This document shows, piece by piece, positions 48,270 to 62,969 of a stretch of 64,000 bases of DNA; the stretch's first letter is position 1; every line of letters starts with the position of its first letter. A model generated the notes under the pieces. It was given only the letters and a program-made list of their open reading frames with translations. It ran no database searches and was not told where the DNA came from. This DNA is from Diphasiastrum complanatum (lineage: Eukaryota > Streptophyta > Lycopodiopsida > Lycopodiales > Lycopodiaceae), in contig MU832029.1 of the NCBI GenBank assembly GCA_029204225.1, positions 26,742 through 90,741 of the forward strand, given 5' to 3'. A program made the position numbers and the translations under genes.

Positions 48270-49116
48270 GATCTAGTCCCATATCTAGAGGTGAAGCCGG
48301 AGAAAATTAGTGTCTGCATGAAATTCTGTCTGTCTGGAGCTTGTGCGGGCGTGGAAATCCCCTGCTAGTAAAATTTAACCCTGCTTAGAAAAGATAGCAA
48401 TATCATCTGAGAGTGCCTGAAATGGGTCCCCACCAAATTCAGCAAACGCTGAAGTTCGGGCAGCTCCTATACCCGGGAGCCCTGAGTTCCTATTGTGAGA
48501 GGAGATCGAAATATCTCGGTTTGCCGTCGATAAAAACAACCCTTTGTCCTTTTTCTTTTGCTTCTTGAATAGTCTTTTTTCTTGCCAACCATTGAGTGTT
48601 TGTCAAATCATCATCCATATAAATGAAGGTGCTTTTAAGCTTTGCCCTAAGTCAAAGGGCTGCACTGCGTTGTTGAAGAGAAAGAAATTTGATATATAAA
48701 ACATTGTCATCAAACTTACTATGCCATGCTGTATCAAAACCATCAGCAACGTGAAATAACTTGGAAACAAGTAAATTTGTAGCGTCTTCTCTTGGTTTTC
48801 CTTCGTTGGCAATGCCTCTTACTCTAATGTTGAAAGCTTTTTTGGCCCTTCTAGCTTGCTCATCCAAACTCTCATTTGCTGCCAGCGATGAAGGAAGCAC
48901 CTCCATCGCTGGAGGTGAAGATGGCCGCAGCCCCTCCATCGTTGATGATGGAGGGGACTTCTCCTCCATCACTGACAGTGTCAGTGATGGAGGGGGAGAT
49001 GTGATCAATAAGGGGGGAAGGGGGGGGGCGTAGGGGCACCCCCCTTCTTCTTAGGCGCCATGGAGGAAGGGCGGAGCAGCAGCAGCGATGGAGAAGGGCG
49101 GAGCAGCAACAACAAC
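48270..49116 (-). mobile_element. LINE copy I: ORF1 with deleted coiled coil, joined to an endonuclease piece
   Basis: In sense order: ORF1 from MAPKKKGGAPTP (49066) through a shortened N-terminus to DEQARRAKKAFNIRVRGIAN and beyond (48652; continuing in another frame to about 48500), then a jump to an endonuclease part (48455-48270; DFHARTSSRQTE-like). The coiled coil seen at residues 56-160 of copy L is missing. The 5' side abuts (GA)n at 49117; the 3' end is lost. Confidence 0.75.
48652..49066 (-). pseudogene. LINE I ORF1, coiled coil deleted
   Basis: The sense strand reads MAPKKKGGAPTPPPPPLIDH at the start (49066), then a Ser/Pro/Asp-rich part, then NESLDEQARRAKKAFNIRVR, FDTAWHSKFDDNVLYIKF and the block SLQQRSAAL before a frame break. 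The fusion of N-terminus and RNA-binding domain without the trimerising coil would probably not support a working ORF1 protein. Confidence 0.7.
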
Positions 49117-49173
49117 GAGAGAGAGAGAGAGAGAGAGAGAGAGAGAGAGAGAGAGAGAGAGAGAGAGAGAGAG
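49117..49173. repeat. (GA)n spacer between LINE I and LINE J
   Basis: About 28 GA units lie between the 5' leader of copy I and the 3' end of copy J (AGCTTTATGAATGTC). Confidence 0.95.
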
Positions 49174-50370
49174 CTTTATGAATGTCTTTTCCATGCCAAA
49201 AGGCATATATAAGACCAATAAGAGTACACATCAAATATGTGGTAACCATCTGCTGCATACATGGCTGAGGGGGTGACGATGGTGTCAAAAAGTTTGCACT
49301 TACTTGGGGCATCCCGAATAGACTTACGGAAGCAGAATCTTTGCAACTGGACCAGGGAAGAATGACTCTTCTCAAGTCTAGAAGTAGCCGCCTGTCTCAT
49401 ACTGAAAGTAGGACCAGTAAAGAGCACGCCAAGGTAAGTATATGAAGAAATCACCTCTAGAGGCTGTTCATCAAAGGTAAGCTCCTGACGTGCATGAAAC
49501 CCGAGAGGTATTGAAGACCATGATTTTGGTCTTCAAGAGGTTCACCCCTAAACTAGAAAAGGTGTAAGCAATCCAGCTGTCTCTGTAAGCCCTCTCTAGT
49601 ATGAGAGACTAGTACCCCGCATAGAGAAGGATAGCGATCAGAATGTCACCAAGCCCAATAGCGCAGATTCAAGATCTTCAATGTCTCTAGTTCGATGGGT
49701 TTTCAATTTTTTGATTTCTGCCCGGACCAAATTAGGGGTGAAGAGGGTGAAGTCTGAAGGTCGAGGAGAGATGGAAATTGGCATATCGGTGGATATAGTG
49801 TAAAGCTGGGTAGCATAGTCAGTCCAGGTATGTAGGTCGTCTAGGAGAGGGGGCCGAGCACGGGGGATTAATTCATGCCAAAAGGCACCAGGAGAGGAGC
49901 TGAAAAAGAGGTTCACAAGACGGTTTCCCTCGGAGATGCGGCGAAGTGTGCGGTTGTACACTTGCCGCGAGGAGTGAAGGAGATGGGGGTCATGGAAACG
50001 AGCATGTGTGACAGTGTGGTGAAGGGAGCGGCATTCCGCGTCGTACAATGGTGGATGGAAAGGTCGAGGTGATCGCAGATGAGCTGGTTTGTTTTTGTGA
50101 GGTTTAGATGGAAAGGCCAAAGTTGTAGCAGTATGAGAGAAGTGGTGGGGAAGGCAGCCTGAGACTCCAGTGGTTTGTTGTGCGGAAAAGAGTGACGTAA
50201 GGAGGCAAGGGATTCTTTTTAGAGCGCTATGCTGATTAGAGAGAGAGTGGTGGGAGAGATATAGAAGTTGTGAATGAGAGGAATGGATGAAGGTGACCCC
50301 GTGAGGTAATCAACAACATTACGACCACCACTATGAGGATGACAAGTATAGCTGCCACCACTCTGGTCGT
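49174..50370 (-). mobile_element. LINE copy J, 5'-truncated in the endonuclease and internally deleted
   Basis: From the 3' side: hairpin and 3' UTR (49174-49250), a jump into the RT thumb (49251-49510; SYTYLGVLFTGPTFSM, ATSRLEKSHSSLVQLQRFCF), a second deletion near 49640, then the linker before RT (50120-49650; LTPNLVRAEIKKLKTHRTRD-like) and the end of the endonuclease (50370-50230). The 5' truncation point (TCTGGTCGT) abuts (GA)n directly. Confidence 0.8.
49184..49215 (-). other. 3' terminal stem-loop of LINE J
   Basis: GTC and GAC close the structure. ATGCC pairs with GGCAT around AAAA (+ strand view). Confidence 0.75.
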
Positions 50371-50573
50371 AGAGAGAGAGAGAGAGAGAGAGAGAGAGAG
50401 AGAGAGAGAGAGAGAGAGAGAGAGAGAGAGAGAGAGAGAGAGAGAGAGAGAGAGAGAGAGAGAGAGAGAGAGAGAGAGAGAGAGAGAGAGAGAGAGAGAG
50501 AGAGAGAGAGAGAGAGAGAGAGAGAGAGAGAGAGAGAGAGAGAGAGAGAGAGAGAGAGAGAGAGAGAGAGGAG
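50371..50573. repeat. very long (GA)n spacer (about 100 units) between LINE J and LINE K
   Basis: Some 200 bp of almost uninterrupted GA are followed by GAGAAATTATATTAATGTC of copy K. It is the longest such tract in the window. Its length in the assembly may be uncertain. Confidence 0.95.
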
Positions 50574-61735: not shown

Positions 61736-61879
61736 GTGTATACCATCACAGTTCCATAAATCTGGAGATGGTGTGGATGGGGCCCGGGGCACTCTCGAAC
61801 CCAGGTACCCCAAATCCCATAAGCTTGGGAGCTTGCTATGAGCGCTATCAAGAAAGTGCACTCGTCCATCTCGATAAAT

Positions 61880-62740
61880 GACTCATCTGCCAGGACTCAC
61901 GGGCTACCTGAAAGGCGTTACGCCCTCTCCTCTACTTGGATTTATGTGAGGTCGTCATCCTATAAGATAGTGGTACCACGTAGCTTAGCTCTGCACCGCA
62001 AAGCATCTCGGTGACTCTCTAGGGAAGTGAAATGTATGATGAGTGTGGGCTGCATCTCTAGTGGTCCTCCATGCGGTATCTAATCCATCTGTCCTGTGCC
62101 CGAGAGTGGTGTCGAGAAAGCTTTTGGCTTCAGCCAAGGAATCTTGTGTATCCGGGATCCCGCGAACTCTAATGTTGTGGGCTTTTTGGTCTCGAGATTT
62201 CTCTTCCGAAATGGTGGCTGAGATAATCGAGGAGATGGGAGCGCCTGGTTGGGGCCTTTTTTTATTGAAAACTGATGCCCAAGAAAGGGCCTCTTTCTTG
62301 TTGCTTTTCAATCTTGGTCTCTAGTTCCCGTATCATATTGGTGGTGGAAGCTGAAGCTGCAGCCTGCTTGATCCTGATGGATTGTTCGAGTGATGCAACT
62401 TTGGACTGCAGCATGTTCTTCTCATTGATCAATGAGGTAACCGTTGCTTTCAACTGTGAGATTTCTTGCCGCAGAATCTGGAAATCTGCCTTGATTTGAT
62501 CGATCTGCGAAGAGGAAAAAAAGTTCAGTTGATTTAGAGGGCGTATATGGGATACTTGCTGTAGGTTGTGATACCGTGAGGGAAGAAGAGCTAGCAATGA
62601 TCGGAGTGGGAAGAATGGGATCGGAAAATGGAAGAGCAGAATCGGAAGAAAGAATGGGAGTAGACATCGGCGGGCAAGAGCGGGTAGGACCTGTTGCCAC
62701 GGAGAGGGAGGAGTGTGAGGTGAGCCATTAGCGGGGGGGG
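61880..62740 (-). pseudogene. LINE P ORF1, broken
   Basis: On the minus strand are the N-terminal region (62756-62540; Pro-rich, partly from G-run repeats), a coiled coil (62510-62290; LKATVTSLINEKNMLQSKVA, IRELETKIEKQ) and a folded domain (62311-61985; QKAHNIRVRGIPDTQDSLAE, GLDTAWRTTRDAA), each separated by frame changes. Confidence 0.75.
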
Positions 62741-62917
62741 GGGGGGGGTGTGCCATCAGCGGGGGGGGGGGGGGGGGTGGGTGGCAACGAGGGGGGGGAG
62801 TGGGGTGTTAGCGAGGGGGGGAGTGTGGTAATGAGGGGGGGGGAGTGAGATGGCAGGGAGGTAGGGGAGTGAGAGGTCCGGCGAGCAGGGATGGCGCGAG
62901 GAGGAACCATGGTGTGT
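62700..62917 (-). repeat. G-run repeats in the 5' leader of LINE P
   Basis: Runs of 15-17 G at 62731-62747 and 62762-62777 and several of 7-9 G up to about 62850 recur with GTGGCAACGA or GTGTGCCATCAGC between them. The + strand has strong G-quadruplex potential. Confidence 0.85.
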
Positions 62918-62969
62918 GAGAGAGAGAGAGAGAGAGAGAGAGAGAGAGAGAGAGAGAGAGAGAGAGAGA
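62918..62969. repeat. (GA)n tract, 5' flank of LINE P
   Basis: About 26 GA units separate the leader of copy P from unrelated intron DNA. It marks the right end of the LINE array. Confidence 0.95.

Follow-up and report, generated by a model that had tools for sequence, protein, structure and literature searches.

A LINE family of Diphasiastrum complanatum that very probably targets (TC)n microsatellites and stacks head to tail

LINE pieces and GA tracts in the window

The stretch of DNA analysed here (the window) comprises 64,000 nucleotides of Diphasiastrum complanatum, C511:26742-90741 (contig MU832029.1), and the genome searched was the corresponding assembly of 1.745 Gb in 5176 contigs. 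The window contains pieces of a family of long interspersed nuclear elements (LINEs), which we delimited by tblastn and blastn with one copy, termed L, as query; several of these pieces adjoin long (GA)n tracts that read (TC)n on the sense strand of the element (Table 1). An initial annotation of the window had proposed that the family targets (GA)n/(CT)n microsatellites and forms arrays by repeated insertion. On the evidence set out below, we consider it very likely that this is a target-specific, recently active LINE family that inserts into (TC)n, with TC on the sense strand, and stacks head to tail.

Seven (GA)n tracts, starting at positions from 49117 to 62918, lie between minus-strand LINE pieces as had been described, and the claim that every boundary of the array is (GA)n holds for these but not for 58293, where only GAGAGA plus (AAAG)n is present, the latter being the tail of the adjoining fragment itself. 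Similarly, (GA)n spacers separate most LINE pieces but not all: tblastn and blastn with copy L found no LINE match in 58024-58290, a GC-rich tandem repeat of ~13 bp between two GA tracts, and copy I adjoins the tract at 49117 on its 5′ side but has no GA tract on its 3′ side (48262). Copies truncated at different points (J, K, M and a fragment of the last ~270 bp) do adjoin (GA)n at their 5′ ends, and the isolated copy B has a tract on both sides; the annotation was correct on both counts.

The second open reading frame (ORF2) of copy L matches the Pfam families PF03372 (1.6e-14) and PF00078 (1.5e-33) and retains E, D-N, D, D-H and YADD residues, which we take to be the catalytic motifs. An AlphaFold2 model of its product, ORF2p, with a mean predicted local distance difference test score (pLDDT) of 83.7, is nearest to the full-length human LINE-1 ORF2p (E 7.7e-34). 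The element combines an apurinic/apyrimidinic (AP) endonuclease and a reverse transcriptase in one ORF, lacks long terminal repeats (LTRs), and shows frequent 5′ truncation at many ORF2 positions with a constant 3′ end, as expected of an AP-endonuclease LINE. The AP endonuclease at the ORF2 N terminus rules out site-specific LINEs of the restriction-like endonuclease (RLE) type, such as R2, R4, HERO and NeSL, and a SaTar or other Mutator-like element (MULE) was ruled out by the coding content, which is LINE ORF1 and ORF2; inverted repeats were not searched for. ORF1 matched none of the Pfam families at 0.001 and nothing in the PDB with an E value below 0.26, and its nearest relative is the D. 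complanatum hypothetical protein O6H91_02G138100 (97%). Parts of LINE ORF1 are publicly annotated as D. complanatum hypothetical protein genes (P0121, P0123-P0125). For ORF2 we found 629 relatives; among the best 120 of these, the closest across the whole reverse transcriptase region stand at 43-48%, and the named plant relatives are from the fern Adiantum (44 and 52% across half of that region), the yew Taxus (36-38%) and the liverwort Calypogeia (36%).

The genome search with ORF2 gave 39,705 candidate places, and the best 40, which were scored, were all at 99-100%. In the 30 loci that were fetched, ORF2 is free of stops in 29, and pairwise identity is 99.3-100% (median 99.74%), a range biased to young copies because the 30 are the best-scoring. 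The elements form a LINE family of several subfamilies that has been recently active in D. complanatum. Copy counts are inflated by duplicate contigs left in the assembly: C1124:1-10000 is 100% identical to C4:64204250-64214249 (10 kb), and some small contigs are, judged by such sequence identity, alleles or duplicates of chromosome stretches. Two 5′ untranslated regions (UTRs) were observed. The L-type (56721-56967) is a variable array of GC-rich units of ~20 bp with inner TC tracts, and a second, unrelated type occurs in the copies L003, L008, L013, L026 and L030 (copies and loci elsewhere in the genome carry such numbered labels).

Table 1. Positions of LINE copies and of (GA)n/(TC)n tracts in the window
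Feature	Position	Strand	Remarks
(AG)32	8435..8498	.	3′ flank of isolated copy B
Isolated LINE copy B	8499..13288	-	other subfamily; (TTTC)n tail
(AG)40	13289..13368	.	5′ flank of copy B
(GA)n	32282..32321	.	3′ end of LINE copy ~32322-35872 (-)
L-type LINE copy	45974..46417	+	internal deletion
(TC)41	46418..46499	.	3′ end of the + strand L-type copy
LINE copy I	48262..49116	-	ORF1 C-terminal and endonuclease pieces, internal deletion; tblastn/blastn with copy L
(GA)28, sense-strand (TC)n	49117..49172	.	flanks I (5′) and J (3′)
LINE copy J	49173..50370	-	5′-truncated in endonuclease, first matched ORF2 residue ~215
(AG)102	50371..50574	.	J 5′ side, K 3′ side
LINE copy K	50575..51860	-	5′-truncated, ~ORF2 residue 827
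(GA)n, single GC interruption	51860..51901	.	separates K and L
Copy L 3′ tail repeat, sense (TAATTC)n	51899..51923	-	separates element from target (TC)n
LINE copy L	51902..56967	-	ORF2, ORF1, GC-rich tandem-repeat 5′ UTR
ORF2 of copy L, 1167 aa	52145..55648	-	AP endonuclease, reverse transcriptase, C-terminal CCHC
ORF1 of copy L, 302 aa, coiled-coil-like	55697..56605	-	
(GA)31 at 56968-57029, then (AAG)n to 57059	56968..57059	.	L 5′ flank, M 3′ flank
LINE copy M	57060..57983	-	5′-truncated, ~ORF2 residue 996
(GA)20	57984..58023	.	adjoins truncated 5′ end of M
LINE 3′-end fragment, last ~270 bp	58291..58594	-	(TTTC)n tail; adjoins tract at 58595
(GA)47	58595..58688	.	
LINE copy, degraded	58689..62917	-	ORF2 (59106-61759), ORF1 (61924-62510), repetitive 5′ region
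(GA)26	62918..62969	.	5′ end of LINE copy 58689..62917

Flanks and empty sites elsewhere in the genome

Our main sample consisted of 30 fetched full-length copies (rows), taken from the best-scoring of the 39,705 candidates and representing 27 distinct loci, as L001/L002, L010/L011 and L026/L027 each seem to be one locus read twice. On the sense strand, L-type copies end in GTTAAT(AAT)n TC(TAATTC)1-3, followed by (TC)n. TC of at least 6 bp (6 to 264 bp) directly follows the 3′ end in 27/30 rows and 24/27 distinct loci; the rows without it are L003, L017 and L020, the last of which has one G and then (TC)41. Upstream of ORF1, a TC tract of at least 9 units is present in 27/30 rows, with copies ending at differing points of the 5′ UTR or ORF1. 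In L003 this upstream tract (TC19) was rejected as the 5′ junction, being internal to a longer 5′ UTR of the element, and the true 5′ end adjoins target (CT)6. Six 5′ joints (L008, L009, L014, L016, L022 and L028), the cases in which other copies show the expected next sequence, have a TC-like overlap of 1-3 bases when judged by eye. The orientation of TC relative to the LINE was constant in the copies read.

An independent sample was based on the 3′ end of a second subfamily, the 16-mer AAGACATTAATAAAGC, which occurs 2401 + 2461 times in the genome and whose reverse occurs 0 times. Among its first 20 places on contig C1, (CT)7 or longer is reached in 15, mostly via a (TTTC)n-like tail, and the figure rises to 17 when runs of 3-4 units (L046, L057) are included. 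In both samples most copies thus lie in a single kind of target. Across the genome, at least 945 of the 2401 forward sites have TC no more than 6 bases after AAGACATTAATAAAGC, a count that misses longer tails; the reverse-strand count, 2777 against 2461 sites, is inflated by multiple ends. As a control we read 20 arbitrary 1-kb loci, one of which was all N, and found 3 GA/TC tracts of at least 10 bp in 19 kb, none of the three lying beside a LINE end as judged by eye.

To see the target before insertion, we queried 12 of the 27 distinct loci for empty sites, using flanks chosen as unique-looking. L003, on C4541, has an allelic empty site at C4:28243600-28244179. The empty allele reads ACCATTTTCTTTCTCTCTCTCTCTC|ACACACACACACAATC, with the pattern CTTT(CT)6|CACAC, while the occupied allele has the same left TC run, then the LINE 5′ UTR, and on the right side TAATTC|TCACACACACACACAATC (TAATTC|TCACAC). 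The left flank is 99.4% identical to the empty allele over 361 bp, and the right flank is the same over the stretch read except for a (CT)24 versus (CT)44 tract. The target tract at this locus is short, ~7 units, and allows a target-site duplication of ~2-4 bp, the length of a duplication being unreadable inside TC. L014 (C15:22.90 Mb) has a near-identical empty site at C15:21.93 Mb, which agrees with it at 100/100 bases on the right side and at all 30 bases that precede the tract on the left. In the empty site the 3′ end of a different LINE is followed by 65 bp of (CT)n and AAATCC, and the occupied site has 50 bp of CT, the LINE, TCTCTC [(TC)3] and AAATCC; the entry of one copy into the 3′ tract of a second LINE is directly visible here. 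For L025, the joined flanks match at least 33 paralogous places as one continuous stretch, and the LINE is absent from 20/20 of those fetched. The longest unbroken CT run in these is 4-21 bp, at least 7 bp in 19/20 and at least 10 bp in 13/20; several runs are interrupted, and one of the 20 measures only 4 bp.

The TC tract preceded insertion at these three sites with an empty counterpart. This upholds the earlier proposal that the (GA)n is target DNA, with the reservation that some TC lies inside the 5′ UTR of the element. L029 lies in a repeat, of which we read 11 copies: in four, (CT)n adjoins sequence that belongs to the repeat, two have a LINE-like tail, and in five the tract is longer than the stretch read. 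For L006, L007, L021 and L030, the joined flanks returned only their own 3′ flank among the matches listed, together with 31 bp at the L030 locus that match the L007 flank, and as that list (best 40 scored) consisted mostly of L025 paralogues it is no test of these four. Among the matches listed, the 3′ flanks of L015 and L028 were found only at their own places, L016 gave no match, and the 3′ flank of L026 was found at three places (C4, C1124 and C1075), with LINE ORF2 beside it on C1075.

Two further loci are described for their surroundings. L018:1-620 is a stack of two LINEs with (TC)8(TA)n upstream and (TC)33TG(TA)n downstream, flanks that look like a target-site duplication extending beyond the TC run. 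At L024:5331-5500, a LINE lies within a TC tract that is followed by TGGTATCAGAGC; we take this to be near a Copia LTR end, with TGGTATCAGAGC resembling a primer-binding site.

Stacking, competing explanations and a possible mechanism

Stacking is common on the sampled chromosome. In the main sample, the 5′ tract is immediately preceded by the 3′ end of another LINE in 19/30 rows, and other LINE coding sequence in the same orientation begins less than 500 bases past the 3′ end in 13/30. In the C1 sample, LINE sequence of the same orientation follows in 8/20 (6 by protein, 2 by DNA), including L040 and L057, whose ends lack a long tract. We also took the first 100 3′ ends listed on C1 and measured the 99 gaps that separate neighbours: gaps below 5 kb number 19, against 1.4 expected at random, and 17 of these 19 pairs share an orientation (two-sided binomial p 0.0007), compared with 5/15 pairs at 5-20 kb and 34/65 above 20 kb. 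Close pairs of the same orientation are to be expected if new copies enter the tracts beside earlier ones in a fixed orientation. Together with the insertion of L014 into a LINE's 3′ tract, this bears out the suggestion that each insertion leaves tracts that can be hit again, producing arrays.

One may postulate instead that such stacks arise by tandem duplication of a unit of LINE plus (TC)n, or by recombination between TC tracts. The tandem geometry fits this, as do some neighbouring 3′ ends that lie 130-500 bp apart. However, adjacent copies in the window belong to different subfamilies (33-86% amino acid identity to L, per tblastn piece) and are truncated at different points, which led us to reject duplication as the source of the arrays; moreover, downstream LINE bodies begin at differing ORF2 residues (e.g. 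256, 631, 827, 917 and 926), and L014 is a single copy added inside one tract. The chance that duplication explains the stacks appears exceedingly small. It is also highly improbable that the element makes the TC itself, by adding repeats to its 3′ end, whether untemplated or copied from RNA, in the manner of microsatellite-tailed LINEs and with no choice of target. The element-specific tails of variable copy number that precede the TC, (TTTC)n and (TAATTC)n, are compatible with this, and the tract of L025 is longer than its empty sites; yet TC is already present in the empty sites of L003, L014 and L025, which rejects untemplated 3′ tails as its source, and a 3′ tail cannot account for the TC that also adjoins 5′ ends with truncations at many different points. 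Both tests set out in the initial annotation, namely whether the flanks of other copies are non-microsatellite and whether the (GA)n is untemplated or absent at 5′ junctions, were thereby answered in the negative by the 3′ TC of both samples, the empty sites and the upstream tracts.

A third alternative places the specificity outside the endonuclease, with open or nick-prone chromatin at microsatellites, or a UC-rich RNA tail that anneals to any broken GA end, directing an endonuclease that is itself non-specific. The tolerance seen at L019 and L003, which sit at TC/CA borders, and at L040, which adjoins (TTC)n, speaks for it, and the tails imply pairing between primer and RNA. Against this, the share of TC is high and strand-oriented, and dinucleotide tracts other than TC are rare beside the 30 copies. 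We consider this explanation unlikely overall and infer that the endonuclease itself recognizes TC, though the tolerance at the TC/CA borders leaves room for primer pairing, rather than the endonuclease, setting the target.

Target-specific insertion into (TC)n must also be weighed against several observations that do not favour it. Young L-type copies are over-represented among the 30, which are the best-scoring of all candidates. L017, L019 and L021 (3/30 rows) have no TC tract upstream of ORF1, L017 also lacks TC at its 3′ end, and L019 and L003 are the border cases just mentioned. In the C1 sample, L039, L040 and L047 (3/20) have no adjoining TC run: L039 reaches (CT)36 only beyond 56 bases of other sequence, L040 runs into (TTC)n and L047 has none. 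Of the 12 loci queried for empty sites, eight led only to themselves or to an occupied place, or were absent from the matches listed. The occupied left tract of L025 has 34 units (right 5.5) and far exceeds the 4-21 bp of its empty sites, and some TC therefore arises or lengthens at or after insertion. In the window, the statement that sense-strand CT always stands at the 3′ end is borne out by the (TC)41 on the plus-strand copy but fails for 6 of 15 LINE pieces, which by hand count have no tract of at least 8 units there (1081-1551, 3607-5514, 27911-29356, 30942-31777, 44565-44999 and copy I); these pieces look old or 3′-truncated.

The 3′ ends offer some indication of how insertion may proceed. 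A two-part stem-loop just before GACATTAATAAA is common to 15 3′ ends of different subfamilies, seven of them typed from loci already read. In the alignment of these 15 related sequences, 95.8% of cells pair, against 28-55% in slid versions, and 16 cells are changed on both sides, a number reached in 0/500 shuffles although the relatedness of the sequences limits its weight; counted per pair, changes on both sides number 3, which lies within what shuffling gives (90/500 shuffles). On the 3′ side, the target TC comes after a short tail that derives from the element itself, (TTTC)n or (TAATTC)n. The stem-loop and the varying short tails suggest a LINE of the stringent type, whose reverse transcriptase would read its own 3′ end. 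Under a mechanism consistent with these features, insertion very probably begins with a nick that ORF2p makes in the GA strand of a (TC)n/(GA)n tract, and the freed ..GA 3′ end would pair with the UC-ending RNA tail, (UUUC)n or (UAAUUC)n, and prime reverse transcription from the conserved 3′-terminal stem-loop. The 5′ end, often truncated, may then be rejoined to the upstream TC via short microhomology. Each insertion would split one tract into two of the same orientation, either of which a later copy may enter; repeated entry would lead to head-to-tail stacks of different subfamilies, and slippage may lengthen the tracts after insertion.

(GA)15 matches 1,574,016 + 1,589,100 times in the genome, in 2-base steps, from which we estimate ~2 x 10^5 TC/GA tracts, or about one per 7-10 kb, assuming tracts of ~50-60 bp as in the copies read; this density agrees with the control loci. 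It is conceivable, if rather doubtful, that the LINE lineage builds its own habitat, entering short (TC)n and leaving long tracts, so that each insertion adds oriented target and the lineage would rank among the main origins of the long (TC)n tracts in this genome, which number in the order of 10^5, as well as of self-renewing head-to-tail arrays along chromosome arms. As far as the literature searched goes, the family would be the first LINE known from a land plant to have a strict sequence target, and its insertions would renew that target. Its young, polymorphic copies allow a safe-haven strategy, the birth of microsatellites and the formation of arrays to be tested within a single genome, and comparisons of how LINE endonucleases choose DNA would gain from a plant enzyme that targets a dinucleotide repeat.

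Related systems and minor features of the window

Retrotransposons that stack head to tail at the end of an earlier copy include Zepp of Chlorella and HeT-A/TART; those are telomeric and have no (TC)n, whereas the Diphasiastrum LINE is interspersed along chromosomes. Among fish LINEs of the Tx1 clade, Kibi and Koshi reportedly target (TC)n and (TTC)n, respectively, and are said to have been described by Kojima and Fujiwara in 2004; the comparison with fish LINEs drawn in the initial annotation agrees with this. The family described here resembles Kibi, Koshi and Togen in being a non-LTR element with dinucleotide-repeat flanks, and differs in residing in a land plant and in having several co-existing subfamilies that stack on each other. 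Togen targets (TG)n, the target-specific LINEs of Tx1 and R1 use an AP endonuclease, as here, several RLE clades are target-specific as well, and some target-specific LINEs choose microsatellites (PMC4640811).

In plants, non-autonomous SaTar MULEs of guayule, rice, sorghum and citrus form arrays in microsatellites, and these arrays, like those of the LINE, are end-to-end, non-nested and composed of unrelated copies (PMC5907723). SaTar elements are DNA transposons with terminal inverted repeats, whereas the LINE is a retrotransposon, autonomous and oriented in one way relative to the repeat, and its arrays are head to tail as a result. MuTAnT of Medicago is described as targeting TA repeats (PMC4486113), and the maize elements TAFT/TAFTA as microsatellite-targeting class II elements (PMC4486113, PMC5907723); TAFTA empty sites are reported as short, with a longer repeat after insertion (PMC5907723). 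These elements share microsatellite targeting with the LINE, and the lengthening at TAFTA resembles L025; they are class II elements and target TA repeats. Our search of openly licensed papers found no plant LINE that targets microsatellites. Microsatellite-targeting LINEs in animals and microsatellite-targeting MULE arrays in plants are already known.

Within the window, contig C4346 aligns over 27.8 kb at 99.3% and showed no polymorphic LINE copy across that alignment; it is identical to the window across the copy L element. Copy M contains a 133-bp tandem duplication at 57502-57754 (1.9 copies, 99%). A further tandem duplication, of 210 bp, lies at 25402-25869 within an ORF that we take to be a remnant of a hAT-type transposase. 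Judging from their translations, the ORFs at 6890-7897 and 16724-18004 are presumably a Ty3-like integrase/chromodomain and a Copia-like gag/integrase, respectively.

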